Positions 7,966-21,156 of a stretch of DNA of 64,000 nt are shown one piece after another. The translations under genes and the position numbers were made by a program. Within the stretch, counting starts at the first letter, position 1; every line of letters starts with the position of its first letter. Source of the DNA: Stagnimonas aquatica (GTDB taxonomy: Bacteria; Pseudomonadota; Gammaproteobacteria; Nevskiales; Nevskiaceae); NCBI RefSeq assembly GCF_003730135.1, contig NZ_RJVO01000006.1:1-64000 (forward strand). Reading direction: 5' to 3'. The notes below the pieces were generated by a model that was not told where the DNA came from, did no database searches, and saw only the letters and a list, made by a program, of their open reading frames with translations.

Positions 7966-8267
7966 GGAGACTGCCCTTGGCTAGGCGCGCCGAGGTAGCG
8001 CGAGGAGATGTACTTTTTGGCGACCTCGACACCGCCGACGGTTCCGCCGTACACCAGCCACAGCAAAGGGTCGTCGGGCATCGTGGCCAGCATCTTTCGG
8101 GTGAAGACGTAGACGTAGAGCAGATAGCAGCCCTTGCTCAGAGACAGCGTGCCGTCCGGCGAGAGCACCAGGTCGGGGATGCGGCGCAGCCCCATCACCA
8201 GGGCCAGCAAGGCATCGAGCAGGGCATGGACGAACAGCGCCACACGAATCGAGAGCGGGCACTTCAT
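7962..8267 (-). CDS. Putative holin (small membrane protein)
   Basis: 101 residues from the ATG at 8267, which overlaps the stop of the lytic transglycosylase gene (ATGA). It has one or two hydrophobic segments (about residues 8-25 and 68-82), a moderately charged middle and a polar tail. Position between endolysin and spanins and size fit a holin or antiholin. I recognise no family, so the function is inferred from context. Confidence 0.55.
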   Translation of the reverse strand: MKCPLSIRVALFVHALLDALLALVMGLRRIPDLVLSPDGTLSLSKGCYLLYVYVFTRKMLATMPDDPLLWLVYGGTVGGVEVAKKYISSRYLGAPSQGQSP

Positions 8268-8821
8268 TGCCGGAAGCCCAAGGCCCGCACACCGTCCACA
8301 TATTCCTGGTTGATGTAGCGCACACCGTCCTTGCGCGGCGAGCCGGCGTTGTAAGCGGCAATAACGCCGTCCCAGCCCAGCGATGCGAAGTGCTTGCGCG
8401 AGAGCGCGCGCAGATAGGCGCACCCGGAGTTGACGCCAGCCAAGGGGTCGCAAAGGGCGCTGAGATAGCCCTTGAAGCCCTGTTCACGGGCCAGTGACCC
8501 CATCACCTGCATGAGCCCGTAGCTGGTCTGCTGAGCCACCCATTCGGTGTTGGGAGTGATGCCAGGCAGGCCAGAGAAATCCGAGGGCGCCTTATCCAGC
8601 GACATGTCTGCTGGGCGGCAGTTATAGGCGCGAAGCAGGCGGTTATCCCAGAGCCAACGAAAGTCCGGCTCGTAGCGCGTCGCCCAAGTGTTAAGTCCGG
8701 ATTCCTTGCGGCAGATCGCCAGCACCAGGTCGTAGGGCAGCGCGAAGTCTGCCGCGCCTCGCTGGATCACACGGGCCAGTGCGTCGGTTGGTTGCGGCAG
8801 GTTTGAGCTGGGCGAAGTCAT
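8264..8821 (-). CDS. Phage endolysin, lytic transglycosylase (SLT) fold
   Basis: 185 residues from the ATG at 8821. The SLT/lysozyme-like pattern is clear: catalytic Glu40 in CRKESGLN, then SYGLMQVMGSLAREQG and AAYNAGSP, the three conserved blocks of the family. It cleaves the glycan strands of peptidoglycan at lysis. An in-frame ATG at 8881 would place the start inside the conserved late-promoter element, so 8821 (or 8851) is preferred. No signal peptide, so export depends on the neighbouring holin candidate. First gene of the leftward late operon. Confidence 0.85.
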   Translation of the reverse strand: MTSPSSNLPQPTDALARVIQRGAADFALPYDLVLAICRKESGLNTWATRYEPDFRWLWDNRLLRAYNCRPADMSLDKAPSDFSGLPGITPNTEWVAQQTSYGLMQVMGSLAREQGFKGYLSALCDPLAGVNSGCAYLRALSRKHFASLGWDGVIAAYNAGSPRKDGVRYINQEYVDGVRALGFRQ

Positions 8822-8856
8822 GCACGGCAGGATGGCCGTGCGTCCGGTCATTCTCG

Positions 8857-8893
8857 ATGCCGGAAATGTTTCGCCCCGCATGGTGCGGGGCGA
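8857..8893 (-). promoter_or_regulatory. Late-operon control element, leftward copy
   Basis: Read on the minus strand: TCGCCCCGC, a 5-nt loop, GCGGGGCG, then AAACATTTCCGGCAT. The same element, with a 6-nt loop, lies on the plus strand at 20087-20124. Each copy ends about 36 bp before the first start codon of a late operon (8821 here). The 8-bp dyad would suit an activator of the Mor/C type, or form an RNA hairpin that blocks read-through from upstream; the 15-mer after it is identical in both. Promoter function is inferred. Confidence 0.7.
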
Positions 8894-8907
8894 CGGGAGT
8901 CAGGCTA

Positions 8908-8921
8908 CGCGGCTAGCCGCG
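8908..8921. terminator. Perfect 14-bp palindrome after the repressor operon
   Basis: CGCGGCTAGCCGCG lies 17 bp beyond the stop of the exported-protein gene on the minus strand and just before the late control element. It may help to end the lysogenic transcript before the late operon. There is no U-tract, so an operator role is equally possible. Confidence 0.35.
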
Positions 8922-8937
8922 AGGTGGTCAAACAGCG

Positions 8938-9420
8938 TTAACGGCGTGTGGCTCGCTTCCGCACCGAGCCATACCCATCGGACGTCGCTTGCAGCCGCAT
9001 TGCATCGGTCTCGAATGCAGGGCTGTCGAGCTGTTTTTGGGTCGGTTGGGCAACCAGCACGTCGAAGACCAAGTCGGGCTCCGCGACGAAGTGCGCGAGA
9101 ATCTTCACGGCGATGGCCCGGCAGCTTGATCCCTTCGACCGCAAGCTCGCGTAACTGCCATCGTGCCTGTACTCGACACAGCGCCATGAAAGCGAGTCAG
9201 CGTCGGCTCGATCATTGCCGATCAACTCCAACTGGGCACCCTCTACGCCGGGAATCCCCCACCGTTCTCGGCGCAAGCCCCTATCGCTGCGATCCACCGT
9301 CGACACAGAGACGTTGAGTCCTTTGAGGACGCTCTCGGCGGAGATCCGCTGTTCGATCTCGGCTTGAGCCACTATCGGCATCAGGCAGGCGAGCGACAGC
9401 GCTGCTGCAATTGCTCTCAT
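8938..9420 (-). CDS. Small exported protein, co-transcribed with the repressor
   Basis: 160 residues from the ATG at 9420; a GTG at 9432 overlaps the repressor stop and could also be used. The N-terminus MRAIAAALSLACLMPIVAQA is a convincing signal peptide ending in an AQA signal-peptidase I site. The mature protein has two cysteines that could form a disulfide and a basic tail (SVRKRATRR). No family recognised. Lying directly behind the repressor, it should be made in the lysogen, which suggests a lysogenic-conversion or superinfection-exclusion protein. That role is inference. Confidence 0.7.
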   Translation of the reverse strand: MRAIAAALSLACLMPIVAQAEIEQRISAESVLKGLNVSVSTVDRSDRGLRRERWGIPGVEGAQLELIGNDRADADSLSWRCVEYRHDGSYASLRSKGSSCRAIAVKILAHFVAEPDLVFDVLVAQPTQKQLDSPAFETDAMRLQATSDGYGSVRKRATRR

Positions 9421-9428
9421 GGTCGGGC

Positions 9429-10202
9429 TCACCGGTCCCGTCCTTGGCGCACGACACGCCCGATGATCTCCGAGTGGCCCGACTCCAGGTCGGCCGGGAT
9501 GATCTCGAACGGCGGGAACTCCTCCGACAACTTGCTGGTGGCCTGTATGCGCCCGTTAGGCAGCATCTGCAGGTACTTCACCATCAGCAGGCTGTCGGTG
9601 CGCAGCGCGTACATATCGCCTTCGCCGACGGTCTTCTTTGAGCGGTCCACCATCACCGTGTCTTTGGCCTGCAACTCCGGGTACATCGAGATGCCTGCTA
9701 CGGGAAACTCCGCCAGGTCGATGATGCTGAGCTCGGGTCGGCCGTCGAAGTATTCGCGCCGATAGAAGTTCCACTTTTTCGGCGTTGTCAAAAACTCCCG
9801 GCCCGCTCCGCCGGCCAATGGGATGTCGTAGTACGGCACCCACACGTAGGCCCCAGACCGAACCAGATCCAGCGCCGCCTCCACGCTCAACGACTCCGAG
9901 GCGTACTTGCGGGCACGGCTAGCGATCTCGGCGAAGTCGCCGCGCGTCAGCGTCCAGGCGACATCCTCGTCGCGCAGATCCACCTCCTGCGGCGGCCATG
10001 TCCCACGGCCCAGGATCAGGTAATCGAGACTCACGCCCCGCTCCAAGGCGACCTGCATGCACTCGTCGAACGGAATGCTGTTCCGGTTTCGCCAGCTCGC
10101 TGGCGTAGAGACCCCGACGCCGAGCGGGCGCGCAAGGGCACTGTCGGAACTCACGCCGAGCACAACTTGCAATCTGTCTAGGACTTCACCGGCATTCGAC
10201 AT
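9429..10202 (-). CDS. CI/LexA-like phage repressor with S24 peptidase domain
   Basis: 257 residues from the ATG at 10202 (MSNAGEVLDRL). N-terminal helix-turn-helix (about 5-65) of the phage CI type, including STPASWRNRNSIPFDEC. The C-terminal S24 domain has Ser172 in AGISMYP and Lys209 in MVKY, the Ser-Lys dyad of LexA-type self-cleavage; AG at 130-131 or 133-134 may be the cleavage site. This suggests RecA-dependent induction. Upstream in-frame starts (ATG 10223, TTG 10280) would run through the operator region. It differs from Mu's own c repressor, which lacks a peptidase domain. Confidence 0.88.
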   Translation of the reverse strand: MSNAGEVLDRLQVVLGVSSDSALARPLGVGVSTPASWRNRNSIPFDECMQVALERGVSLDYLILGRGTWPPQEVDLRDEDVAWTLTRGDFAEIASRARKYASESLSVEAALDLVRSGAYVWVPYYDIPLAGGAGREFLTTPKKWNFYRREYFDGRPELSIIDLAEFPVAGISMYPELQAKDTVMVDRSKKTVGEGDMYALRTDSLLMVKYLQMLPNGRIQATSKLSEEFPPFEIIPADLESGHSEIIGRVVRQGRDR

Positions 10203-10231
10203 AGCGCAATAAACCTCTTGCATTGCGTCTA

Positions 10232-10273
10232 TACGTTTCGTATTGTTATCGCACTTGTTCAATACAAAACGTA
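10232..10273. promoter_or_regulatory. Divergent early/lysogenic operator: 14-bp inverted repeat
   Basis: TACGTTTCGTATTG (10232-10245) and CAATACAAAACGTA (10260-10273) are inverted copies with one mismatch and a 14-bp spacer. The left arm contains the palindrome TACG-TTT-CGTA. The block lies between the repressor start (10202) and the start of the Ner-like gene (10280), exactly where repressor and Ner would compete for the divergent promoters. Which protein binds which site cannot be read from sequence. Confidence 0.65.
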
Positions 10274-10279
10274 AAGACA

Positions 10280-10519
10280 ATGCACCCAGCGGACATCAAG
10301 GCGGCGCTTGAGAAGGCAGGGAAACCCCCGTCCAGGGTTGCCCGCGCGCTCAAGCTCCGGCCGTCGACGGTGAGCCAGGTGATTCATGACAAGGGCAAAA
10401 GCCGCCGAGTCGCCGGGTACATCTCGGACGCCATTGGCATCCCGGTTTCCCAACTCTGGCCAGGCAGCTACCCGGCCTTGGAGTTGGCGGAAATCCGGGG
10501 AACTCGGAGGGCCGCTTGA
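10280..10519 (+). CDS. ner: Ner-like DNA-binding regulator
   Basis: 79 residues. It follows the pattern of Mu Ner: HPADIKAALEKAG, a helix-turn-helix VARALKLRPSTVSQVIHD, and a closing VSQLWPGSYP that parallels the IWPQRY end of Ner. Ner shuts down early and repressor transcription during lytic growth. It is the first gene of the rightward early operon and starts 7 bp after the inverted-repeat operator. The ribosome site is weak (AAAGAC). Confidence 0.82.
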   Translation: MHPADIKAALEKAGKPPSRVARALKLRPSTVSQVIHDKGKSRRVAGYISDAIGIPVSQLWPGSYPALELAEIRGTRRAA

Positions 10520-10520
10520 C

Positions 10521-11024
10521 ATGCCTAGTGTACGCGCGCCCCGGCCTGGGTCACTTGCAAACGGACGCTCCCGTTTTTCCAGCCAGGGCGACCTTTTTTC
10601 CTGTTTGGATGCCCTAGACGAGCGCCCGCGCTTTGTCGACCTGGACGTCGACCAGGAACTACGTGGCGCCATCGTCCACGCGATCCGCGAAGCACTGAAC
10701 CGCCAGTCCGACCCCCTAAGCCGGGAACGCATCGCCGACCGCATGAACCAGTTGCTGCCTGGTCTGCGTCATCGAATCACCGAGCGCCGCCTGAATAGCT
10801 GGACGGCCAAGAGCAAGGAATACAGCGAGTTCCCGGCCCGATTTATCCCCGCCTTCTGCGCCGCCGTGGAATGCGACGAACCCCTGCGCGTGCTCGCCCG
10901 CGCCCTCCGCCAGGACGTGGTGGATGCCCACGCCCTGGCCGCCAAAAGCCTAGGCGAAAACCTCATTCAAGACGCGGCGCTGAAGACCCAGCGCCGCCTG
11001 CTGCTGACCCGACTCGGAGCCTGA
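10521..11024 (+). CDS. Early phage protein of unknown function
   Basis: 167 residues from the ATG at 10521, two bases after the Ner-like stop. The first 30 residues are low in secondary structure; the rest is helical with a DNA-binding-like stretch (RERIADRMNQLLPGL, then ITERRLNSWTAKSK) in which a regulator-like helix pair may lie. No family recognised. Position between the Ner-like gene and the transposase operon suggests an early regulatory role. Confidence 0.6.
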   Translation: MPSVRAPRPGSLANGRSRFSSQGDLFSCLDALDERPRFVDLDVDQELRGAIVHAIREALNRQSDPLSRERIADRMNQLLPGLRHRITERRLNSWTAKSKEYSEFPARFIPAFCAAVECDEPLRVLARALRQDVVDAHALAAKSLGENLIQDAALKTQRRLLLTRLGA

Positions 11025-11025
11025 A

Positions 11026-12000
11026 GTGCGCAAGAACGAACTAGCCAAAAGCCGCGACGTTGCGGCATTTGAACTAAACCCCGCTCAGATGGGGCAACTC
11101 GCGGAGATAGCTCGCGCCGATCTGCAGGGCAGCGACGAAACCCTGGCGGCCCTGGGTGCCGAGGAGCTTGGCCGGGCCGAGATGAGCGTTCTGCGCGCTG
11201 GGGCTTACTTCCTCAAGCTCAAAGAGCAGGCTGGGCACGGCGGCTTTATTCAGGCGCTCAATAGCGTCGGGGTCTCCCCGGATCGCGCCCAGCGATCCAT
11301 GCAGATGGCTCGCTATGTCGCCTCACTGCCGGCCGATCAGGCGCGCCGCATTGCCGCTCTGCCGCGCAGCAAGGTGCTACCCCTAGTGAACGCCGACCAG
11401 GAAGTGGTCGGCGAACTGCTGGAGCAAGGGGCGCTGGACGGTGAGCAGCCACTCTCGGTGCGGGAGTTGCAAGACCGCCTTCGCAAGTCGGAGGCAGAGA
11501 AGGCCACCCTCAAGACCCGCCTGGAAACTGCCCAAGCCGAGAAAATCCGTCTGGCGCGCGAGCGCAGTCGAGTCCTCGCCGAAGAAGACCTTCCGGCATT
11601 TGCCCTTGAAGCCCGGCAGGAAGCCCTGGCCCTCACCGAGCAAATGGGCTTTGGGCTCGACAGCCTGCAAGACATCGTCGAGCAAAACCTCCTCCAGCGG
11701 GTCAAGCACCCTGAGGCAGACCGCTTTCAGCCCTTGGCAGCCGGCACCACCTTCCACGCGTTGGCGGCCGTGCATGCCCGCGCCGGCCTGCTGCTCAGCC
11801 GACTGCAAGCACATTTCGGCGAGGCCATCGCAGACCCCGACGTGAAGTATTCGCTGTCGCCGGCTGAAGCGCAGCTATTCATCGCCGGACGCGAGCGCCT
11901 GCTAAGTCAGCAGCAGGCCGACGCCAAGACGCGCGCCAACAAACGCGCCAATGACACCCCTGGCAAGCCCGGCCGCAAGCGCGGGCCAGCCTCGCGCTGA
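11026..12000 (+). CDS. Early phage coiled-coil protein (DUF3102-like)
   Basis: 324 residues, probably starting at GTG 11026. The N-terminal half resembles the DUF3102 type found before transposase genes in some Mu-like phages: RAGAYFLKLKEQAGHGGFI and a following helical domain. Residues about 150-190 form a charged coiled coil (LRKSEAEKATLKTRLETAQ). The C-terminus is basic (KRANDTPGKPGRKRGPASR) and could contact DNA. Function unknown; it directly precedes the transposase gene by 8 bp. Confidence 0.6.
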   Translation: MRKNELAKSRDVAAFELNPAQMGQLAEIARADLQGSDETLAALGAEELGRAEMSVLRAGAYFLKLKEQAGHGGFIQALNSVGVSPDRAQRSMQMARYVASLPADQARRIAALPRSKVLPLVNADQEVVGELLEQGALDGEQPLSVRELQDRLRKSEAEKATLKTRLETAQAEKIRLARERSRVLAEEDLPAFALEARQEALALTEQMGFGLDSLQDIVEQNLLQRVKHPEADRFQPLAAGTTFHALAAVHARAGLLLSRLQAHFGEAIADPDVKYSLSPAEAQLFIAGRERLLSQQQADAKTRANKRANDTPGKPGRKRGPASR

Positions 12001-12008
12001 GCTGAAGC

Positions 12009-13799
12009 ATGGCCGCCGTCCTCCCTTTCAAGCCCCGCGAGCTGATGCTCGCGCCGCTGGACCCGCTGGATGCTCTCTCCGCCGAGGCCCGTGCCGAGGC
12101 GCAGCGTTGCCTGGGGCTGATTCGGCCTGCCTTGCAGCGCATGGCGCAGGGCGTCAGCAAGCGGGCGGCGGCAGCCTGGCTCGCGCAACAGGGGGGCGAC
12201 ATGCCCAGCCTGCCCACATTGCAGCGCTGGCTCGCCGCCTATGAGCGCGACGGGTTGGTCGGCCTCGCGCCCAAATACAAGGGGCGCGTTCGAAAGGAGT
12301 ACGGCTGGGAGGCAACGGCACTGGAACTGTTCGGCAATCGGCCGACACAGCCGCACTACTCGACGGTGGCCATGTGGCTGCGCGAGAAGCACGGCTTCGA
12401 AAACGCAGCGGACCACCTGGTGCGCCGCTACCTGCAGAGCCTGCCCAGCAACCTCACCGAAACCGCGCCTGGCCGCCTGGGGCGCCACTACTACCAGCAG
12501 AACGTGAAGCCCTACGTACTGCGAGACAACACCGTGCTGCCGGTCGGCTTCATCTACGAGGGCGACGGACATTGCTGCGACGTCTACGTGGCCTCTCCCC
12601 GCACCGGCAACGCCTACCGCCCGGAGCTCACCGTGTGGGTGGACGTGCGCAGTCACTTCGTCGTCGGCTGGTACTTGAGCGAGAGCGAATCGGCCAATAC
12701 CACGCTGTTCTCCCTCAGCCACGCGCTGCTGAGGCATGACCATGTGCCGGCCATGCTGCACGCCGACGTCGGCTCCGGTTACGTCGCCAAGACCATCAGC
12801 GACCAGCGCACCGGCTTTCTGGCGCGCTTCTCCATCGAGCCAATCTACGCGCTGCCGGGCAATGCCAAGGGGAAGGGCCTTATCGAAGGGTTCTGGCGCT
12901 GGTTTGAAGAACGGTGCGGCAAGCAGTTCCCCACCTTCTGCGGGCACGACCGCACCGACGACTATCTGCGGCACCTCAGCCGCAAGGTGGAACGCGGGCT
13001 GATCCGGCTGCCGACGCTGGCGCAATACGCCGACGCCTGCCGGGAGTACTTCGACTTCTACAACCGCAACCACCAGAAGAATCTGGGCTGCGCGCCGAAG
13101 GACTTGTGGGCAGAGCTCAACCGGGTGCCGGTAGAAACACCGGCGGCGGCGATCATGCGGCCCTGCGAAAAGCGGATGGTGCGGCGCTGGGGTATCGCAC
13201 TGCATAACCGCATCTACCGGAGCGGCGATCTGGCGCGCTACGAGGGACGCGAGGTCAACGTCCGGTACGACCTGCACAACGACATGGTCGTCTGGATCGA
13301 AGACGCCAAGGGGCGCCTGATCGGCGAGGCCAAGCTGGTGGAGAAGCACCCCTGGCTGCCCGACTCCCGTATCGAGGAGGCGCAGCAGAAGCGCCTGGAA
13401 GGCCAGGCTCAGCGCCTGGAAAACAAGCTGGTGGAGTTCCAGGGGCGCGCCAAGGCGCCGCTCACTGGCGCCGCCATGCTGGACGCCCTCGACGACGTCC
13501 ATTTCCTCAGCGCCACGCCGAGCACCCCGGCGCCGGTCAGCTACCTGCGGCCCATCGACCCCGAGATCAGCGAGCGCGTCACCGAGGCCATCGCCGAAGC
13601 CGGGCAGCACGAAGAAACCCCCACCGAGCGCTACCAGCGTTGGGTGAACGCCGAGGCCGAGCTGGCTGCCGGCCAAGCACTCCCCCCCGAGCTACAGACC
13701 TGGTTCGACACCTACCAGACCAGCAGCGAATGGCGCTCGTTCGACCGACTCAGATCCACCTTCGGCGCCGTCTCCGGCGTCGTCTTTCCGTCGCCCTGA
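12009..13799 (+). CDS. MuA-like DDE transposase
   Basis: 596 residues. Order: N-terminal helical DNA-binding domains (1-150, with a helix-turn-helix around 45-80), an RNase-H-like catalytic core with D186 (YEGDGH), D253 (HADVGSG) and E293 (LIEGFW), and a Mu-type C-terminal domain with a beta-barrel (RYEGREVNVRYD) and a helical tail. It catalyses strand transfer for integration and replicative transposition and pairs with the next gene's ATPase. The D-D-E spacing (67 and 40 residues) is usual for the family; MuA itself is longer (663 residues). Confidence 0.95.
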   Translation: MAAVLPFKPRELMLAPLDPLDALSAEARAEAQRCLGLIRPALQRMAQGVSKRAAAAWLAQQGGDMPSLPTLQRWLAAYERDGLVGLAPKYKGRVRKEYGWEATALELFGNRPTQPHYSTVAMWLREKHGFENAADHLVRRYLQSLPSNLTETAPGRLGRHYYQQNVKPYVLRDNTVLPVGFIYEGDGHCCDVYVASPRTGNAYRPELTVWVDVRSHFVVGWYLSESESANTTLFSLSHALLRHDHVPAMLHADVGSGYVAKTISDQRTGFLARFSIEPIYALPGNAKGKGLIEGFWRWFEERCGKQFPTFCGHDRTDDYLRHLSRKVERGLIRLPTLAQYADACREYFDFYNRNHQKNLGCAPKDLWAELNRVPVETPAAAIMRPCEKRMVRRWGIALHNRIYRSGDLARYEGREVNVRYDLHNDMVVWIEDAKGRLIGEAKLVEKHPWLPDSRIEEAQQKRLEGQAQRLENKLVEFQGRAKAPLTGAAMLDALDDVHFLSATPSTPAPVSYLRPIDPEISERVTEAIAEAGQHEETPTERYQRWVNAEAELAAGQALPPELQTWFDTYQTSSEWRSFDRLRSTFGAVSGVVFPSP

Positions 13800-13826
13800 C
13801 CCTGCCGCACCTACCGAGGATTCCCC

Positions 13827-14582
13827 ATGAAAGCACGCGTCGCCCCCACTCGTAACGTCCGCCGCCTCGCCGAGGTGGCCGACATGCTCACCCGTCGTGC
13901 CCCCGGCCTTCCCGGTGTCGCCATCGTCGATGGCGAAACCGGCTTCGGGAAAACCACCGCCATCAATTGGCTGGTCAACCAGGTGGAAGGCATCGGCATC
14001 TACGTCCGCGCCCGCAAGACCTGGCGGGTGGCCAGCATGCTCAAGGCGATTCTGGCCGAGCTGCACATCAAGCCGCGCGGCAGCGCCGACGACATGCTCG
14101 ACGACGTGGTGATGGCCCTACGCGAAGCCAAGCGCCCGCTGTTCATCGACGAGATGAACAACATCGTGCGCCGCCCCGACATGGTCGAGGTCGTGCGCGA
14201 CATCATCGACCTGAGCAACCAGGCGGTGATCCTGATTGGCTATACCGGCCTACTGACCGAACTCAGCTCTCATCGCCAGCTCACCCGCCGCGTACTGCAA
14301 CAGGTGACCTTCGAAGCTGCCGACCTGGCGGACGCCCGCGCGGTCGCGAGCAACTGCGAGGTGGAGGTGCGTGACGACTTGCTGGAGCGGGTGCTCAAGT
14401 CGGCGCGCGGCAGCATCGGCGAGCTGACCATCGGCCTGGCACGCATCGAGGCCTTCGCGGTCAGCCGCGGGCTCAAGTCGGTGGGCTCCAGCGATTGGGG
14501 CAAGCGCGACGAGTTCTTCACCGGCAGCCAGACCAGCACCACCTACGGCGCCACCGTCACGCCGATTGGGGCTGCGCGGTGA
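13827..14582 (+). CDS. MuB-like AAA+ ATPase, target selector
   Basis: 251 residues. Walker A GETGFGKT at 36-43 and Walker B FIDEMNN near 105 mark an AAA+ ATPase of the MuB/TniB group. It binds target DNA in an ATP-dependent way, delivers it to the transposase and gives target immunity. It follows the transposase gene by 27 bp, with AGGATT before the ATG. It is shorter than MuB (312), as in other non-Mu members. Confidence 0.92.
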   Translation: MKARVAPTRNVRRLAEVADMLTRRAPGLPGVAIVDGETGFGKTTAINWLVNQVEGIGIYVRARKTWRVASMLKAILAELHIKPRGSADDMLDDVVMALREAKRPLFIDEMNNIVRRPDMVEVVRDIIDLSNQAVILIGYTGLLTELSSHRQLTRRVLQQVTFEAADLADARAVASNCEVEVRDDLLERVLKSARGSIGELTIGLARIEAFAVSRGLKSVGSSDWGKRDEFFTGSQTSTTYGATVTPIGAAR

Positions 14583-15031
14583 GGGCAACCAAAGACACCG
14601 CCATGCGAGCACGCCAGCTCCTGGCTGTCTTCCAGGCGGGCGAGCGCCTGCCGCAGAACCACCAGGACATGGCCCAACTGTTGGCGGAGGTTTTCGGGCG
14701 CAAGCCCAAGCCGCAGCCCCTCAACAACCAGCCGCTGCCGCTGGCCAGCGCGCGCGGAAAGATGTGGACGTCCATGCGAATCCAGCGGGACTTCACCGCC
14801 CAATCGGTCGCCGCCGCCAGCGAGACCGAGGTGCAGGCGGTACGCAAGTACATCAAGGCTCTGATAGCGGCCGGCTACGTGCGCCTGGAGCGTCAAACCA
14901 GCTTCGAGGTGGGTGACCACAGCGCCTACTCACTGCTGCGCAACACCGGCCCCTACGCGCCGCGTGTCCGGAGCCGGGGCTGTGCCATCTACGACGTCAA
15001 CCTCAATCAGGAGGTGACCCGTGACGACTGA
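14579..15031 (+). CDS. Early phage winged-helix protein, unknown function
   Basis: 150 residues if the GTG at 14579, overlapping the ATPase stop, is used; an ATG at 14603 is the alternative. The centre (WTSMRIQRDFTAQSVAA, then TEVQAVRKYIKALIAAGYV) has a winged-helix look of the kind used for replication or regulatory proteins. It ends with a polar tail and overlaps the next gene. Not recognised more precisely. Confidence 0.6.
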   Translation: MRATKDTAMRARQLLAVFQAGERLPQNHQDMAQLLAEVFGRKPKPQPLNNQPLPLASARGKMWTSMRIQRDFTAQSVAAASETEVQAVRKYIKALIAAGYVRLERQTSFEVGDHSAYSLLRNTGPYAPRVRSRGCAIYDVNLNQEVTRDD

Positions 15032-15386
15032 GGCACCCTGGATTGCAGTCCTGCGCGAGTACGTAAAGGCGCACGGGCTGAAGCCCGCCGGCAAGAAGAT
15101 CGGCTACAGCGGCAGCGCTGTCAGCGCTGCGCTCAACGACAAGTACGGCGTGAACGGCTTCCCCGGAAACCTGGAACGCATGCAGACCGCCGTTGAAGGG
15201 GCCTTGATGGGCTCTCGCGTGGACTGCCCGGTCGTCGGTGACATCCCCCGCAATGCCTGCATCGCCAACCAGCGCCGTGCCAGCGACCCCCGGGCCACCA
15301 ACCCCATGCGCATGGCGCTGAGCGAGGCCTGCCAGAAATGCCCCCATGCCACCACCACCGGCGTCGCCGGAAAGGAGCGTTGCTGA
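15021..15386 (+). CDS. Small helix-turn-helix protein with Cys-rich tail
   Basis: 121 residues from the GTG at 15021. The N-terminal half has a helix-turn-helix (KKIGYSGSAVSAALNDKYG) followed by GNLERMQTAVEGAL. The C-terminal half holds Cys residues in CPVVGDIPRNAC and CQKCPH that could bind a metal. Proteins of this layout recur in Mu-like early regions. A role in regulation is likely but not shown. AAAGGAG precedes the next start. Confidence 0.62.
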   Translation: MTTEAPWIAVLREYVKAHGLKPAGKKIGYSGSAVSAALNDKYGVNGFPGNLERMQTAVEGALMGSRVDCPVVGDIPRNACIANQRRASDPRATNPMRMALSEACQKCPHATTTGVAGKERC

Positions 15387-15526
15387 TGAAAGCCCTGATG
15401 AACCTACTGCGGCATGCCTGGCTGCACTTCCGCTACCGGCGGGCCGCCGTGATTCCCATCCCGACAGACCTCTGTGTGGTGCGTCCGCGCCGCCGCTACG
15501 AGGTGCTGTGCAACCCCAACCTTTAA
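15386..15526 (+). CDS. Very small basic phage protein
   Basis: 46 residues. The ATG shares its A with the previous stop (TGATG) and is preceded by AAAGGAG at a good distance, so it is probably translated. It has an amphipathic N-terminus (MNLLRHAWLHFRYRRAAV) and many arginines. No family recognised. Confidence 0.5.
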   Translation: MKALMNLLRHAWLHFRYRRAAVIPIPTDLCVVRPRRRYEVLCNPNL

Positions 15527-15539
15527 CCCGAGCAACACA

Positions 15540-16157
15540 ATGAACCAAATCGCAGAGAAACACGGCTGCTGGCCCGATGCCGCCGGTCGGCTTGTCCCCA
15601 AGGAACTCGTCAAACCCATCGACCGGCTGCGCGACGAGTTGGTGCGCGCCCTGATTGGCCAGGGCGAGCAGATCGCCGCTCAGATCGCCGCCTACAAGGC
15701 CGGCGCGTTCGCCGACATTGCCAGCTTCGTCGAGCTGAGCCTCGAGCAGTACGGTGTGAAGGTCGGCGGCCGAAAGGGCAACCTGACCCTGACCAGCTTC
15801 GACGGCAAGTACAAGATCACCCGCTCGGTGCAGGAGTCCATCAGCTTCGACGAACGCCTGCAGGCGGCGAAGGAACTGATCGACGAGTGCATCCAGACCT
15901 GGACGGAAGGCAGCCGGCCGGAGATCCGCGCGCTCATCAACGATGCCTTCCAGGTGGACAAGGAAGGGAAGATCAGCACCGGCCGTGTGCTGGGGCTCAA
16001 GCGACTGGAGATCAGCGACGAAAAGTGGACGCGTGCGATGAAGGCCATTGCCGACAGCGTGCGCACCGACACCAGCACCACCTACATCCGCCTCTACCAG
16101 CGAGTGGGCGACACCGAACGCTACGAGCCCATCTCGCTCGACATGGCGGTGCTGTGA
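15540..16157 (+). CDS. DUF3164 family phage protein
   Basis: 205 residues. The sequence (WPDAAGRLVPKELVKPIDRLRDELV, split here as typical family features: an N-terminal W-x-D/N-A-x-G motif, a helical middle, then the SFDGKYKI and DEKWTRAMKAIADS blocks) is characteristic of DUF3164, a conserved early protein of Mu-like and related phages. Function unknown. It overlaps the next gene by one base (TGATG). Confidence 0.82.
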   Translation: MNQIAEKHGCWPDAAGRLVPKELVKPIDRLRDELVRALIGQGEQIAAQIAAYKAGAFADIASFVELSLEQYGVKVGGRKGNLTLTSFDGKYKITRSVQESISFDERLQAAKELIDECIQTWTEGSRPEIRALINDAFQVDKEGKISTGRVLGLKRLEISDEKWTRAMKAIADSVRTDTSTTYIRLYQRVGDTERYEPISLDMAVL

Positions 16158-16630
16158 TGACGCCCACTGCTGACCTAGTGGTACTGGCGATGTTCACGCT
16201 ATCCGTTGGCGTGCTGCTCGGCCTGTATCTCGGCATGCGTTGGGCGATGGTGGGCCAGGACGGCACCCCGTTCGCCAACCTCGCCGAGGTGGGCCAAGGC
16301 ATGCACCTGCTGCTGGCGCGGACACAATTTCTGGACGCCGCCCAGCCCGACGAGCTCGAAGCCATCCGCAAGCTGCAGTCCAGCGCTAGCAGGCGAGCAC
16401 CCATGTTCAGACCTCGCCAGCGCGTTCGCTGCCGAAACACGGGCCTGATCTACCGAATCGTCGACTGGCCGCGCCGCTGCTTGTTCGAGGCAACTGCCTT
16501 GCCGGCCTATACCTTTACGGCCGAGAGCGGCGGCGACATCACGCTCTGGGTAATTCCGCAGGCGGACATGGAGGACGGGCGGTTCACCCCGGTTGGTGAC
16601 GCCGTGCCCACAGCGGTGGGCGAGTTCTGA
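16157..16630 (+). CDS. Phage membrane-anchored protein, unknown
   Basis: 157 residues. The first 25 form a transmembrane helix (LVVLAMFTLSVGVLLGLYLG). A soluble part follows, with a short beta-rich segment (RQRVRCRNTGLIYRIVDWP) similar to small SH3-like phage proteins. It starts one base inside the previous stop. No known family; early-region position only. Confidence 0.55.
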   Translation: MTPTADLVVLAMFTLSVGVLLGLYLGMRWAMVGQDGTPFANLAEVGQGMHLLLARTQFLDAAQPDELEAIRKLQSSASRRAPMFRPRQRVRCRNTGLIYRIVDWPRRCLFEATALPAYTFTAESGGDITLWVIPQADMEDGRFTPVGDAVPTAVGEF

Positions 16631-16635
16631 TCTTC

Positions 16636-16974
16636 GTGTCCACCCTCGACCGCCAGTCCCTGCTCGCCGCCCTGTCGCGCCACGTTGGCCGCGACCGGGG
16701 CGTGACAGCGCGGGCGCTGGTGGTCGAAATTTGCGGCACCTGGTCGGCGGCGGGGGAGCGCCACCTTCGCGAGCTGGTGGAGGCGCTGCGCCAGGACGGC
16801 ATCGCCGTCTGCGCGGACCCCAGCAACGGCTACCACATCGCCGCGACAGCCGAGGAGCTGCAAGCCTCGATACAGTTTCTACGGCAGCGGGCGCTCACCA
16901 GCCTGCGCCAGATCCGCCAGCTCAAGCGCCTGGCCCAGCCCGACCTGGGCGGCCAGCGGCGCCTGCTGCTGTAG
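16636..16974 (+). CDS. Small winged-helix phage protein
   Basis: 112 residues from a GTG start. The block HLRELVEALRQDGIAVCADP followed by NGYHIA has the form of a winged helix with a beta-hairpin wing, a pattern seen in many small phage regulatory proteins. The C-terminal third is a charged helix (RALTSLRQIRQLKRLAQ). Specific role unknown. Confidence 0.6.
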   Translation: MSTLDRQSLLAALSRHVGRDRGVTARALVVEICGTWSAAGERHLRELVEALRQDGIAVCADPSNGYHIAATAEELQASIQFLRQRALTSLRQIRQLKRLAQPDLGGQRRLLL

Positions 16975-16989
16975 CGCAAGGGAGCCCCC

Positions 16990-17613
16990 ATGCACTGCAT
17001 CTGTCCGGCCTGCGGTTTCAATGCGCCGCTGCTGTCCTTCACCAGCGAGGCTGCCGCCCACCGGTTTGCCGAGCTGACCCTCCGCGTGCCACCGGCGCTG
17101 GGCAACGTCCTGCAGCTCTATCTGCACCTCTTCGCGCCCGCCAAGCACAGGATGACCTTCGAGAAGGCATGCCGCGTGCTGGAGCCGCTCCTGGTGGTGA
17201 TCGAGACCGGCAACGTCCGCTATGCCAAGCGCGACTGGTCAGTGAGCCACGCCCAGTTGGCCGAGGCCTTGGGCTACATGGTCGGCCGCCGTGCGGAGCT
17301 CGAACTGCCGCTGCGCAACCACAACTATCTGGCCAAGGTGCTGAGCAGCGCCGCCAACAAGCTGGAGGCGGCCACCGAGGCGCAGCAGATCCAGCAGAAG
17401 CGCGAGCCACCAGCCCCGACGCCGGTGGCTCCAACCGCCGATGAGCAGAAGGTCATCGCCCGGCGAAAGGCTGTCGAGGAGCTCGGTGCCGAGCTCGCTG
17501 CCGCCAAGCGGCTCCGGTTGGAGGTGACCCGCGACCAGCTTGCCGACCACCTATTTGCTGCAGGCCACACCAAGGCCGACATCGAGTTCGCGCTCGACAA
17601 GGTGCTGCCATGA
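16990..17613 (+). CDS. Early phage protein with N-terminal zinc-finger motif
   Basis: 207 residues. It starts MHCICPACGF, a C-x-C-x2-C cluster that could bind zinc. The middle is helical (HAQLAEALGYMVGRRAELE), with a Pro-rich linker near 140 and a charged C-terminal helix. Similar proteins appear between DUF3164 and GemA genes in Mu-like phages; function unknown. It overlaps the next gene by 4 bp. Confidence 0.6.
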   Translation: MHCICPACGFNAPLLSFTSEAAAHRFAELTLRVPPALGNVLQLYLHLFAPAKHRMTFEKACRVLEPLLVVIETGNVRYAKRDWSVSHAQLAEALGYMVGRRAELELPLRNHNYLAKVLSSAANKLEAATEAQQIQQKREPPAPTPVAPTADEQKVIARRKAVEELGAELAAAKRLRLEVTRDQLADHLFAAGHTKADIEFALDKVLP

Positions 17614-17810
17614 CTCGCGATGAGATCGAGCACTGGGTGCGGAGCTGCCTACGCAAGGCGCGCTACAGCAATTCCCACAAAGCCGAGGTGGGGCGGAGCC
17701 GTTGCCAGCGCCAGCGCCCCGATACCGCGTTGCGCATTTACCCCTGCGACTACTGCTACGGCTGGCACCTGACCAAGGTCGCCGCCAATCCCGAGAGGAT
17801 CGAATCATGA
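17610..17810 (+). CDS. Small zinc-ribbon phage protein
   Basis: 66 residues. It has Cys14, a basic middle and the block YPCDYCYGWHLTK, a C-x2-C...H arrangement seen in many small phage zinc-ribbon proteins. It overlaps both neighbours by 4 bp (ATGA), so it belongs to the early operon. Function unknown. Confidence 0.6.
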   Translation: MTRDEIEHWVRSCLRKARYSNSHKAEVGRSRCQRQRPDTALRIYPCDYCYGWHLTKVAANPERIES

Positions 17811-18004
17811 GAGTGTGGGTTTTCGACGAGGCGAAGCTCGACCAGGCCCTGCTGACCTGGTCGGACGAGTTGGGCGCACTGCTGCCCGAGGAATCGCGGC
17901 AGATCACCGAAGCGATCCGCCGCTTCCTCACCTCCGAGGCCGCCCTCAAATTGCGCGTGCGAGAGTGCGAGCCGCCGCCGAGCAGCGACGACGAAAGCCA
18001 CTGA
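17807..18004 (+). CDS. Small early phage protein, unknown
   Basis: 65 residues. Mostly helical and acidic (FDEAKLDQALLTWSDELG) with a disordered C-terminus. The start overlaps the preceding stop (ATGA). No family recognised; kept because of tight operon packing and sensible composition. Confidence 0.55.
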   Translation: MRVWVFDEAKLDQALLTWSDELGALLPEESRQITEAIRRFLTSEAALKLRVRECEPPPSSDDESH

Positions 18005-18016
18005 GACCGCCCCGCC

Positions 18017-18694
18017 GTGGCCACCAAAGACCCGCGCCAGACCGAGCTTGCCCGCATTCATATCCTGAAGGCGGCGCTCATTGGCACCCGAGAGTTCGAC
18101 GCCGAGGACTACGCCAATGTGGTCTGGGTTCACGGGCGCCAGCACTCCAGCAAAGACCTGGACGGCCACGGCCGTCGCCAGGTGATCGAGCATCTGCAGG
18201 CGCGCCTCAAGGCCATTGACCCCAAGCACCCGAAGCTGGCGCGCTTCCAGGGGCAGCCCAAGAACATCGGCGCCCGTGGGCGCGGCGAGCTGGAAAAGAT
18301 CGAGGCGCTGCTCACCGACGCGGGTCTGGGCTGGAACTACGCCCACTCGCTGGCCAAGCGCATGTACCGCCGCGACCGGGTGCAACTCTGCGCCGACGGC
18401 CAACTGGTGGGCATCGTCGCCGCCTTGCACAAGGCCGCGCTCAAGCGCCTGGCCACCGACCTGGAGCAACTGCTCGGCTACTCCTGGGCCGACTACGGCG
18501 CGCACCTGGCGGCCTGGCTGTTTGACTTCGACACCCTTCACCGGCGGTTCGATGCCTACCCCGAGGTCATGAGCAAGGTGCTGCGCTGGTGCCGTGGCGA
18601 CTTGGCCGTCGTCTGCCAGTGGCCCGTCGACCAGGACAAGCCGAGCTGCTGCAGCGGTTGCTTCCAAGTCTCGCTGTCGCAGGTCCGTGCGTGA
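18017..18694 (+). CDS. gemA: GemA regulatory protein (Mu gp16 family)
   Basis: 225 residues. The opening ELARIHILKAALIG, the central LDGHGRRQVIEHL and GWNYAHSLAKRM are hallmark segments of the GemA family. In Mu, GemA modulates host gene expression and DNA topology and lies just before mor, as here. The stop overlaps the GTG of the next gene. Confidence 0.88.
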   Translation: MATKDPRQTELARIHILKAALIGTREFDAEDYANVVWVHGRQHSSKDLDGHGRRQVIEHLQARLKAIDPKHPKLARFQGQPKNIGARGRGELEKIEALLTDAGLGWNYAHSLAKRMYRRDRVQLCADGQLVGIVAALHKAALKRLATDLEQLLGYSWADYGAHLAAWLFDFDTLHRRFDAYPEVMSKVLRWCRGDLAVVCQWPVDQDKPSCCSGCFQVSLSQVRA

Positions 18695-19158
18695 CTGACG
18701 ATCTGGCCAAGGTCGATATCAACCGCCTGATCGCGCCCCAGTTGCGCAAGATCGCGGCCACCATCGGCCTGCCAGACACCCTCAAGCTGCTGCGCAAGCG
18801 CGGCGGCACCAAGACCCATGTGCCTCAAGGCCCAGAGGCACGGCTCTTCCCCGATGTGCTCGAAGACGACAAGGCGCGCAACCTGGCGCGGCTGTTCACC
18901 GGGCACCAGTACCTGACGCTCCCAAAGGCCGACAAGATTCTCCAGGAACTCCGCGACCAGCAGATCCGCGCCGAGGTTGAGCAAGGGCGCAAACTGCAGG
19001 CCCAGGCGCTTCACTACCAGCTCACCGAGCGCCAGATTCTCAACATCCGCCGTGGCGACCGGGGCGACAAGTTCAGGAGCGTCCGCGACGTGGAGACGCG
19101 CCGGGAGTTGCAGACCGATTTGTTCGACTCCGCCACTCCGAACCGGGCACGGCAATGA
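18691..19158 (+). CDS. mor: Mor/C-like late transcription activator
   Basis: 155 residues from the GTG at 18691. The C-terminal half has the Mor-type pattern: a helix EVEQGRKLQAQALHYQLTE followed by RQILNIRRG as recognition region. In Mu, Mor switches on middle transcription and its paralogue C switches on late genes. Here only one such gene is seen, so it may directly activate both late operons. Its gene is the last of the early cluster, again as in Mu. An extended N-terminus (about 1-60) is less family-like. Confidence 0.78.
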   Translation: MTDDLAKVDINRLIAPQLRKIAATIGLPDTLKLLRKRGGTKTHVPQGPEARLFPDVLEDDKARNLARLFTGHQYLTLPKADKILQELRDQQIRAEVEQGRKLQAQALHYQLTERQILNIRRGDRGDKFRSVRDVETRRELQTDLFDSATPNRARQ

Positions 19159-19291
19159 AAGCGCCCGTTAAAGCCCCCTTAAAGCTGACCTGCAAGGCCC
19201 CTGTGGCGCTTTCCCCCCATCAGTCCCCCTCCCAATGGATTGCGCGACTCCTGCGCGCTGCCAGGGGCTAGTTGTATTCAGGAGGTTGCCA
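19159..19291 (+). promoter_or_regulatory. Intergenic region after mor with phased repeats
   Basis: It holds TTAAAGC twice (19168-19174 and 19179-19185, 11 bp apart, so on the same helix face) and an AAAGCGCC/GGCGCTTT inverted pair about 40 bp apart spanning this block. A strong ribosome site, CAGGAGG, at 19280-19286 serves the gene at 19292. It may be a middle promoter; the sequence alone does not show this. Confidence 0.4.
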
Positions 19292-19732
19292 ATGCCCGCA
19301 AAGACCAGCCGCAGACAGCCAGACCTGTTTGGAGTTCCTCCGCGCCGTCCGGCCCGTGTGCTGATGCACGTCCACGACGCGGGGCATCTGCCGGGAGGTC
19401 GGAAGGGCGCCGAGATGCAGATAACCGTTCGAGGGAATATCCGCGGCTTCGACGTGATCGAGTCAGCGGTCGAGAACGCCTACGCAAAGCTGCGCGGTGA
19501 CTCCGACTACGCCACCCTCAATATGGAGGATGCCGACGGCAACATCCTAATCAGTGAGGACGACGAAGACAGAGGGGAGTACTGGCTTAAAGACAAGCTG
19601 ATTAGTGCGGCAATTGTTTCGGCCTCTCCGAGATCGGCATCAAGCATTTCCACCCAGGCCACGCCACCAAGGCAGTGCAAACTCTGTGGAGACGAAATCA
19701 AACCCGGCTGGATTCATGGGTGCGGATCATGA
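19292..19732 (+). CDS. Phage protein of unknown function with C-terminal zinc-knuckle
   Basis: 146 residues from the ATG at 19292, preceded by CAGGAGG at ideal distance. The N-terminal 40 residues are basic and unstructured; a beta-alpha-rich middle (MQITVRGNIRGFDVIE, then SAVENAYAKL) follows; the end has CKLCGDEIKPGWIHGC, resembling a TraR-like or zinc-knuckle motif. Between the activator gene and the late operon; function unknown. Confidence 0.6.
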   Translation: MPAKTSRRQPDLFGVPPRRPARVLMHVHDAGHLPGGRKGAEMQITVRGNIRGFDVIESAVENAYAKLRGDSDYATLNMEDADGNILISEDDEDRGEYWLKDKLISAAIVSASPRSASSISTQATPPRQCKLCGDEIKPGWIHGCGS

Positions 19733-19777
19733 GGCCCAACGCCCAAGCTCACCGGAAAACCGGCCAGGGGCCGAACC

Positions 19778-20038
19778 ATGAATAAGAGCGCGCAGGACGA
19801 GAGGCCGGGTTTTCCGGTGGAGCACCTAGTTGGGCCTGAGCCACGCTGGACGTTTGCCTGCACTCGCTGCGCGTGGATAGGCAGCGACCCGCGCAGCACA
19901 TTTATGCACGGATTCTGCGATTGCCCGGAGTGTGGAAATTCATGCACGACCGACGAGCCCAGCTACGAGCCTCGCGCTGGATGCCTTGACGGCAGCGCGC
20001 CCGGCTTCGATCCGATTTGGCCGCCCAACGCTAATTAG
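19778..20038 (+). CDS. Small Cys-rich phage protein
   Basis: 86 residues. Cys residues occur as C-x2-C (FACTRCAW), C-x-C-x2-C (FCDCPECGNSC) and one near the end, compatible with one or two zinc sites. It begins 45 bp after the previous gene; no strong ribosome site. No family recognised. Its AT-richer neighbourhood hints at an independent cargo gene. Confidence 0.5.
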   Translation: MNKSAQDERPGFPVEHLVGPEPRWTFACTRCAWIGSDPRSTFMHGFCDCPECGNSCTTDEPSYEPRAGCLDGSAPGFDPIWPPNAN

Positions 20039-20086
20039 CCCGCGTTTGACCCACCGCCGCCCCCACCCGTAACCTCGTTGCACTGA

Positions 20087-20124
20087 TCGCCCCGCCACCG
20101 AGCGGGGCGAAACATTTCCGGCAT
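20087..20124 (+). promoter_or_regulatory. Late-operon control element, rightward copy
   Basis: TCGCCCCGC, loop CACCGA, GCGGGGCG, then AAACATTTCCGGCAT. It matches the leftward copy (8857-8893, minus strand) except for loop length and sequence. It ends 36 bp before the protease start at 20161. Same arrangement and distance at both late operons point to a shared promoter/activator site; a -10 near GCATAC (20121-20126) would place the dyad centre near -35. Inference. Confidence 0.72.
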
Positions 20125-20160
20125 ACCCGGGAAGCAGGCCGGCCAAGACACTGGCGGCCT

Positions 20161-21156
20161 ATGAAGCGCAACCGCCTAGCCCTCTGCAGCGAGATTCCGG
20201 ACCACGGCCCCGGCAAGGTGCCGTCCGAGCTCAAGTGCATTCCCGCGCCCGACGCCGAGGGCAAGGTTCGGGGCCGCGATGGCCGTAGCTGGTTCTTCGA
20301 CCAGCCGGAGCTGGTGCTGCGCAACAGTCCAGACCGCATCGCCATCGACATCAACCACTCCACCGACCTGGCTGCGCCACGCGGCGAGGAAGCGCCGGCT
20401 GCCGGCTGGATCAACGGCCGCGAGTTAGAGCTGCGGGACGGCGCTATCTGGGGCAAGCCCCGCTGGAACGCCCGTGGCACCGCCGCCGTTGAGGGCGAGG
20501 AGTACGCCTTTATCTCCCCGGTCTTCGACTACGACGGCGCCGGCCGGATCGTGCGGCTCGTCCGCGTATCGCTCACCAACAACCCGAACCTCGACCTGGC
20601 GCTGAACGCGGCTGTCCTCGACCAGGACGTGGACGACTACCCCCCGGAGACACTGACCATGAAGAACCTGCTCAAGGAGCTGGGCCTGCCGGAAACCGCT
20701 GGCGAAGCCGAGGCCCTCGTCGCCCTCAACTCGCTGAAAACCCAGCACCAGACGGCGCTCAACGCCGCGCAGACGCCGGACCTCAACAAGTACGTCCCGC
20801 GCGCCGACTACGACGCGATGCAGACCCGGGCGCTCAACGCCGAGCAGTCGATTGCCGACAAGGCGCGTACCGACCGCGAGAAGGCGGCCGACCAGGAGCT
20901 CGATGCGGCGCAGAAGGCCGGCAAGATCACGCCGGCCTCGCGCGAGTTCTATCGCGCCACCTGCATGGCTGAGGGCGGCCTGGAGAAGTTCCGCGACTTC
21001 CTGAAGTCCGCGCCCGCCATCGTCGAGCCGGGAACCACCGTCTCCGACGAACTGCCCACCGGCCAGAAGACCGCGCTCAACGCGCAGCAGAAGGCCGTGG
21101 CGCTGTCGCTGGGCCTCAGCGAAGAGCAGTTCCTCAAGGGCGCGAAGCAGCAGTAA
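20161..21156 (+). CDS. Mu I-like prohead protease with fused scaffold
   Basis: 331 residues. The protease half (1-160) has His66 in DINHSTDL and Ser137 in VSLTNNPNL, matching the active-site segments of Mu I-type prohead proteases. The C-terminal half is Ala/Glu/Lys-rich helix typical of a scaffold, ending EEQFLKGAKQQ. It processes the scaffold and itself as the head matures. First gene of the rightward late operon, 36 bp after the conserved element. Confidence 0.88.
   Translation: MKRNRLALCSEIPDHGPGKVPSELKCIPAPDAEGKVRGRDGRSWFFDQPELVLRNSPDRIAIDINHSTDLAAPRGEEAPAAGWINGRELELRDGAIWGKPRWNARGTAAVEGEEYAFISPVFDYDGAGRIVRLVRVSLTNNPNLDLALNAAVLDQDVDDYPPETLTMKNLLKELGLPETAGEAEALVALNSLKTQHQTALNAAQTPDLNKYVPRADYDAMQTRALNAEQSIADKARTDREKAADQELDAAQKAGKITPASREFYRATCMAEGGLEKFRDFLKSAPAIVEPGTTVSDELPTGQKTALNAQQKAVALSLGLSEEQFLKGAKQQ
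20659..21156 (+). CDS. Nested scaffold protein (Mu Z-like), internal start
   Basis: In frame inside the protease gene, the ATG at 20659 (codon 167, MKNLLKELGLPE) is preceded by CGGAGA at 20645-20650, a good ribosome site. It would give a 165-residue scaffold without the protease domain, exactly at the domain boundary. Mu makes scaffold Z from within gene I in the same way. Expression is inferred from the start signals and analogy. Confidence 0.6.
   Translation: MKNLLKELGLPETAGEAEALVALNSLKTQHQTALNAAQTPDLNKYVPRADYDAMQTRALNAEQSIADKARTDREKAADQELDAAQKAGKITPASREFYRATCMAEGGLEKFRDFLKSAPAIVEPGTTVSDELPTGQKTALNAQQKAVALSLGLSEEQFLKGAKQQ

Follow-up and report, generated by a model that had tools for sequence, protein, structure and literature searches.

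Putative activator-dependent late promoters formed by a duplicated element in front of both late operons of a Mu-like prophage in Stagnimonas aquatica

In bacteriophage Mu, the activator Mor is described as binding two 5-bp repeats in a 16-bp element centred at −43.5, where it replaces a −35 hexamer (PMC4390567), and C as binding dyads at the Plys, PI, PP, and Pmom promoters (PMC4287176). Here we analyze a 64,000-nucleotide stretch of the Stagnimonas aquatica genome (assembly GCF_003730135.1, contig NZ_RJVO01000006.1, positions 1 to 64,000; hereafter the window), which begins with a Mu-like prophage that carries one copy of a duplicated noncoding element before each of its two late operons. 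Comparative sequence evidence makes it quite likely that each copy forms the upstream half of an activator-dependent late promoter, the pair being equivalents of Plys and PI in Mu. As at Plys and PI, which are activated by C, one phage activator of the Mor/C family would act on several late promoters, a lysis gene and a protease I gene would be served, and each predicted site has an upstream dyad and a weak −10-like hexamer. The window differs from Mu in that its operons are divergent, its activator gene lies in the early operon, no second Mor/C protein was found in the window, the core sequence is another one, and the late genes probably start (near-)leaderless, whereas those of Mu have leaders with Shine-Dalgarno-like motifs. 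Pm, which is activated by Mor, has a 16-bp element of 5-6-5 layout in the −35 place, to which the window sites, paired only at the inner GA/TC, may correspond, and like them it has a hairpin overlapping the activator site. In contrast to Pm, the window hairpin lacks a T tract, structural and lysis genes would be controlled directly, and the distance from dyad to −10 is 25 bp (23 to 24 bp at the peak in relatives; 22 bp in Pm if TATCCT is its −10).

Leftwards from 8821, the minus strand encodes an SLT-domain lysin, a spanin, TerS, TerL, a portal protein, a tail-completion protein, and a minor head protein; a repressor gene also runs on this strand, from 10280. The plus strand carries, from about 11 kb, genes for MuA-like and MuB-like transposition proteins, a DUF3164 protein, and a Mor-family protein, and from 20161 those for a Mu I-like protease, the major head protein, sheath, tape measure, and baseplate. 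The operons and the predicted promoter parts are located as follows.

8264–8821, minus strand: SLT-domain lytic transglycosylase, first gene of the left late operon, predicted to start leaderless or nearly so (Pfam PF01464, E = 1.2e-10)
847–6404, minus strand: distal part of the left late operon, with TerS, TerL, portal, tail-completion, and minor head proteins (PHROGs)
20161–21156, plus strand: Mu I-like head maturation protease, first gene of the right late operon, predicted to start leaderless or nearly so (PF10123, E = 7.8e-54; PHROG 328)
8860–8875, minus strand: predicted activator site GGCGA-AACATT-TCCGG of the lysis-operon late promoter (37-nt spacing; 5-6-5 layout in relatives)
20106–20121, plus strand: predicted activator site GGCGA-AACATT-TCCGG of the protease-operon late promoter (37-nt spacing; 5-6-5 layout in relatives)
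8829–8834, minus strand: −10-like hexamer CATCCT (37-nt spacing)
20147–20152, plus strand: −10-like hexamer GACACT (37-nt spacing)

The duplication is real: copies of the element are present at 8857–8893 (minus strand) and 20087–20124 (plus strand), where the initial annotation had placed them. With up to three mismatches, GCGGGGCGAAACATTTCCGGCAT has exactly two matches in the 3.8-Mb host assembly, at 8857–8879 (−) and 20102–20124 (+), and the 15-mer alone has two exact matches in the window (0.58 expected with up to three mismatches). That annotation had described a 38-bp unit, comprising an 8-bp GC dyad and ending 36 bp before each start codon, and its measurements hold in part. The shared unit extends further than 38 bp on both sides. 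The 8-bp arms are indeed common to both copies, separated by 5 and 6 nt, but the full inverted repeat of the minus copy has 10-bp arms around a 3-nt loop, and that of the plus copy has 9-bp arms around a 6-nt loop; the distance of 36 bp is correct for the plus copy but is 35 bp for the minus copy. In both, TTGACC-N18-TARCCT lies 5′ of the GC hairpin and a −10-like hexamer lies 37 nt 3′ of the arm. The pattern TTGAC[CG]-N16-19-TANN[AC]T has no match in bases 1–38000 other than at the two elements.

A motif search in related prophages, which the initial annotation had advised, showed that the element recurs in related Mu-like phages. Patterns and protein searches located the GC-hairpin element in three further phages: IMGVR 3300037539 (its protease 78% identical to that of the window), a prophage of Solimonas flava DSM 18980 (G040), and IMGVR 3300031672 (hereafter the 31672 phage). 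The latter two resemble the window in having one copy before an SLT-type lysis gene and one, in the opposite orientation, before the protease gene. Prophages G052 and G043, whose hosts belong to the same family as that of the window, are without the GC hairpin and have CGAANNNTTTCC in the equivalent position, in G052 before both operons. The activator sites agree within one phage and differ between phages (window, TTTCCGGCAT; Solimonas, TTTCCCCGGCTGTT; 31672 phage, TTTCCACGGTCTT; G052, TTTCCTCGGCTG), a distribution that fits the earlier proposal of one Mor-like activator per phage. Recurrence in relatives and agreement within phages likewise favor the view, also expressed there, that the copies look like a control element of both late operons. 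A pattern search with 2 mismatches over 194 related genomes returned 30 matches in 27 genomes, against 13 for the reversed control pattern; among the 28 matches outside the window, the hairpin stands in the flanks only at Solimonas flava, and the other 27 are about twice the control. Single-protein scans of viral contigs gave 2, 2, and 3 loci, one in each scan being IMGVR 2881719674, which is not an independent copy because it is 100% identical to the window over the query. A search for near DNA matches between phage records and 24 kb of the prophage found none; in one search with 40 phage records, 4 were fetched.

Eleven sites from six phages were aligned on the base after the arm, among them a third, hairpin-less copy from the Solimonas phage. 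A hexamer of the form xAxxxT lies exactly 37 nt 3′ of the arm in 11/11 sites, which are not all independent because protease-type promoters share GACACT-like hexamers by descent; the next-best offset reaches 3/11, and no offset exceeded a count of 5 when the downstream sequence was shuffled 5,000 times. The same spacing is found in 5/5 sites when the four left-operon sites and the third Solimonas copy are taken alone. Most pairs of 20-nt spacers share 2 to 9 bases (17 in the closest pair). An ATG follows the hexamer by 6 to 9 nt in 10/11 sites, the exception being the left site of G052.

What is kept across these sites differs from the binding site first proposed. The core tail varies between phages and is constant within a phage, and the third Solimonas copy, which has no GC hairpin, nevertheless has a perfect 16-bp dyad, GGGGAAACATTTCCCC (GGGGA-N6-TCCCC), in the position of the window core. 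This layout was counted in 63 nonredundant promoter candidates of Mu-like protease genes, drawn from 121 of 134 protease loci and picked for xAxxxT 6 to 9 nt before an ATG. Perfect 5-6-5 dyads stand 24 bp before the −10 in 9/63 candidates (0.07 expected per offset; shuffles, at most 2), and with one mismatch the counts are 14 at 24 bp and 11 at 23 bp, including one locus that scores at both distances (1.08 expected at each; shuffles, at most 7). By computation, these dyads centre at about −44.5 when the ATG is +1, and the window core sits one bp further out. No TTGACA-like hexamer was found 16 to 18 nt 5′ of the −10 in either window copy. The activator core is therefore likely to be GGCGA-AACATT-TCCGG and not the GC dyad.

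In the mechanism that we propose, the single Mor-family activator (18691–19158) would bind this core in place of a −35 element and bring host sigma70 RNA polymerase to the weak −10 (CATCCT or GACACT) 25 bp 3′ of it, and the RNA would start at the start codon or 1 to 2 nt before it. The left promoter would fire the lysis/terminase/portal operon and the right promoter the protease/capsid/tail operon; since the activator would bind both cores, one early protein would fire both.

The start codons of protease genes were surveyed in the 134 loci entered, of which 130 had a candidate ATG and 77 were nonredundant (left out were 23 of 70 loci with short or weak matches, 4 of 80, and 2 of 4 new ones). 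The hexamer xAxxxT lies 6 to 8 nt before the ATG in 53/77 protease genes versus 121/766 control open reading frames (ORFs; Fisher p = 4e-22), Shine-Dalgarno-like motifs are present in 19/77 versus 477/766 (p = 3e-10), and an inverted repeat that abuts the ATG and has a −10-like hexamer in 17/77 versus 5/766 (p = 7e-15), contrasts that are possibly inflated or deflated because the control ORFs include spurious frames. The gap from −10 to ATG is 7 and 8 nt in the two window copies, and the minus copy has a perfect repeat of this kind.

8822–8841, minus strand: 7-bp inverted repeat GCACGGC/GCCGTGC around the −10, abutting the ATG

The late genes of the window thus probably start leaderless or nearly so. 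We found no report joining the late promoters of Mu to leaderless starts in the titles and abstract openings of the literature searched.

The GC-rich repeat, which overlaps the upstream half of the predicted core, is located as follows.

8871–8893, minus strand: GC inverted repeat TCGCCCCGCA/TGCGGGGCGA, a hairpin without a T tract; no terminator-like site by scan
20087–20110, plus strand: GC inverted repeat TCGCCCCGC/GCGGGGCGA; no terminator-like site by scan

All 7 hairpin copies, which come from 4 phages, share one 8-bp stem (loop, 4 to 6 nt); this constancy comes partly from selection because several copies were found with patterns requiring the stem, although the Solimonas and 31672 protease copies were found without that requirement. 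The identical stem would suit a dimeric activator with the GC dyad itself as its operator, the reading of the initial annotation. This is very unlikely: the arms are set 4, 5, or 6 nt apart, and no such dyad is present in the copies of G052 and G043 or in the third one of Solimonas, all of which have the core and the 37-nt spacing. The hairpin follows the stop codon of the upstream reading frame by 45 to 49 bp in both window copies, which would also suit a mere terminator of the upstream gene with the 15-mer as its tail. So would Mu Pm, where a terminator-like hairpin with a T tract overlaps the Mor site (as judged from the sequence), and a Pseudomonas citronellolis prophage, in which two sites have a GC hairpin with a T-rich tail just 5′. 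That explanation is nevertheless very unlikely, as it leaves the conserved 15-mer and the fixed downstream spacing unexplained, and a scan for intrinsic terminators (a GC hairpin and then a T tract) finds none at either copy. A host-wide terminator type was also considered and rejected: the two elements account for 2 of the 4 genomic matches of CGCCCCGC-N3-8-GCGGGGCG. The Pm hairpin and the P. citronellolis sites lead us to prefer a read-through barrier. Most likely, then, the GC hairpin is a separate feature overlapping the upstream half-site of a putative activator-dependent promoter, where it would block read-through.

A further possibility is that transcription really starts upstream, at a pair of sigma70-like sequences (P1) found immediately in front of each GC hairpin, 6 to 7 bp beyond the stop codon of the preceding frame.

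8902–8931, minus strand: P1 on the lysis-operon side, sigma70-like TTGACC-N18-TAGCCT (one of two pattern matches in bases 1–38000)
20046–20075, plus strand: P1, sigma70-like TTGACC-N18-TAACCT (one of two pattern matches in bases 1–38000)

If P1 were the real start, the RNA would begin at the GC hairpin or a few nt before it and carry two more hairpins up to the AUG, and these would control stability or translation. The motif TTGAC-N17/18-TAnnnT stands 5′ of the hairpin in 5/7 hairpin copies (shuffles, 15/20000), its −10 ending 8 to 12 nt before the hairpin. The leaders of both window copies and of locus L005 fold strongly (z = −5.1, −4.5, and −4.5) with a three-hairpin layout common to unlike sequences, and the part after the first hairpin does so alone (z = −4.4, −3.7, and −3.5); the whole leader of the 31672 I gene has z = −2.9. 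These leaders lie at 8816–8898 (−), 20083–20166 (+), and L005 6385–6462, and the structure is strong only in the window clade. We regard the structured leader as an unlikely account of the element as a whole. P1 is absent from both Solimonas hairpin copies and from four copies without a hairpin, the part after the first hairpin folds weakly at the other eight sites (z = −1.5 to 1.2), and whole leaders score weakly in the 31672 lysis copy (−2.0), the two Solimonas hairpin copies (−2.0 and −2.3), G052 I (0.9), and G043 I (−0.2); xAxxxT at 37 nt in 11/11 sites would also go unexplained. A strict promoter scan reports none at either element, P1 included, and Rfam gave 5 matches in bases 1–40000, all under the family thresholds. 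Within the window clade there may be a second promoter whose leader is structured and poorly translated. The last alternative concerns orientation: the copies are inverted and 11 kb apart, and the initial annotation suggested that the module could have flipped by recombination at them. In prophages of P. citronellolis and Marinobacter, a collinear module is flanked by two copies of the phage's own site as direct repeats, which would suit recombination at such repeats. The window, Solimonas, 31672, and G052 phages, however, all have TerL and portal on one strand and the early genes and protease on the other (the 31672 layout being pieced together from two loci and a sister contig), with the other three proteases 45 to 50% identical to that of the window, and the repeated sequences are short cores of promoters. 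The collinear layout is kept in five loci (from Pseudomonas, Marinobacter, Algicola, and a viral contig), with TerL and portal on the same strand as the protease and 5′ of it in L079, L075, L070, and L140, and portal and MuF likewise in L083. Flipping at the element, past or present, is extremely improbable. The late module appears to have moved in evolution, and no sign of switching at the element was seen (a recombinase was not searched for). The initial annotation is in this way partly supported: its promoter reading with a different binding core, its flipping not.

Several points weigh against reading the two copies as activator-dependent promoters with leaderless starts, besides the shared descent of hexamers and the spurious control frames mentioned above. 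The −10 hexamers CATCCT and GACACT are weak, and the window core pairs only the inner GA/TC of each arm. At the left promoter of G052 the spacing is kept, but the reading frame starts elsewhere, with no leaderless start; the repeat around the −10 is missing, by eye, from the 31672 lysis copy; and the Mu lys and I genes have leaders with Shine-Dalgarno-like motifs. A pure DNA-site model also has no need of the strong RNA folding in the window clade.

Other sites and features accompany these promoters. The third late-promoter-like copy of the Solimonas phage (L067, about 18056, plus strand) lies about 8 kb 3′ of the protease gene and recalls Mu PP; a counterpart in the window was not found by the core and spacing rules used. 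Candidate extra within-phage activator sites (17 to 22 of 24 bases) are present in L079 (2556 and 15188), L075 (2555), L097 (16081 and 19098), and L083 (14719), some with leaderless-type starts. At bases 1–850 the contig begins at or inside the left prophage end, so that the left phage end is not visible; a DNA methyltransferase gene (36724–37545; PHROG 56) is at the right end.

The protein that would act on these sites, and a short motif near its C terminus, are encoded as follows.

18691–19158, plus strand: Mor-family late activator, GTG start inferred from alignment (PF08765, E = 1.6e-07; PHROG 836 late transcriptional activator, E = 3.1e-22)
19111–19125, plus strand: codons of the tail QTDLF, candidate beta-clamp-binding motif resembling QL(S/D)LF

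The profile scores were obtained with the longer ORF 18589–19158, PF08765 being above its cut-off. As the initial annotation held, this is the single Mor-like protein of the window: a profile search of ORFs of at least 60 codons gave no second Mor-family ORF at E ≤ 1e-3. L005, which has the same site as the window, encodes a Mor-family protein with an almost identical helix-turn-helix region. A sequence-profile search among Protein Data Bank (PDB) chains matched Mu C (E = 1.3e-07) and Mu Mor (E = 7.8e-04). The structural model (mean predicted local distance difference test score [pLDDT], 71) aligned with Mu Mor (1rr7; Z = 6.0, root mean square deviation [rmsd] 4.0, 48 aligned) and with 9l0x_I (Z = 5.6, rmsd 7.5, 78 aligned), both tied with other helix-turn-helix proteins; PDB entries 9l0x, 9vw8, and 9l0y are structures with Mu C and Mor.

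QTDLF lies 10 residues from the C-terminal end of the activator. The bacterial clamp motif QL(S/D)LF is said to lie at C termini, and T4 late regulators are described as using C-terminal clamp motifs (PMC9690074). In Mu (L228), C ends in QPDLFSPETPK and Mor in QPSLL. The QxxLF tail was noticed in a first set of Mor-family proteins, and its frequency was afterwards determined in further samples. A search of 369 genomes of the same class yielded 26 Pfam-Mor proteins, the window's included, of which 14 have Q..L[FL] in the last 25 residues (shuffled mean, 0.4), versus 22/935 ORFs; without the window protein the count is 13/25 (Fisher p = 7e-14). Among distinct tails of nonoverlapping phage-locus ORFs, Mor proteins included, 13/1914 match. 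Mor/C late activators, Mu C included, may on this basis carry a beta-clamp-binding tail that would tether them to the host clamp on replicating phage DNA, a tentative proposal that may well be wrong. With the sliding clamp left on such DNA, tethering would restrict late promoters such as these two to firing on replicating templates. Expression of the Mu late genes is described as following the onset of phage replication (PMC4461284). The proposed mechanism would parallel T4 late transcription, with the host clamp and with leaderless late mRNAs. T4 late promoters with gp45 share with the window a candidate C-terminal clamp-type motif in the late regulator; they differ in that the window system would use the host clamp and not a phage clamp, and a DNA-binding activator in place of a sigma factor and co-activator. 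Two findings speak against the proposal: the tail is modelled with low confidence (block mean pLDDT, 44 to 52 from residue 121 on), and only 7/26 proteins have the strict tail (shuffled mean, 0.4), many having no tail at all, in a second sample made up of the top-scoring 26 new loci among more than 100 matches of a phylum search. Other partners of the QxxLF tail are possible. No report linking late activators of Mu or other phages to the clamp was found among titles and abstract openings.

Together, these results would turn a repeat into a late-promoter code for a group of Mu-like phages, consisting of (i) a dyad, (ii) a distance of 23 to 25 bp, (iii) xAxxxT, and (iv) the ATG, and they suggest that a phage head gene starts leaderless. 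Should the clamp tail prove functional, there would be a simple mechanism by which late expression follows replication in transposable phages.

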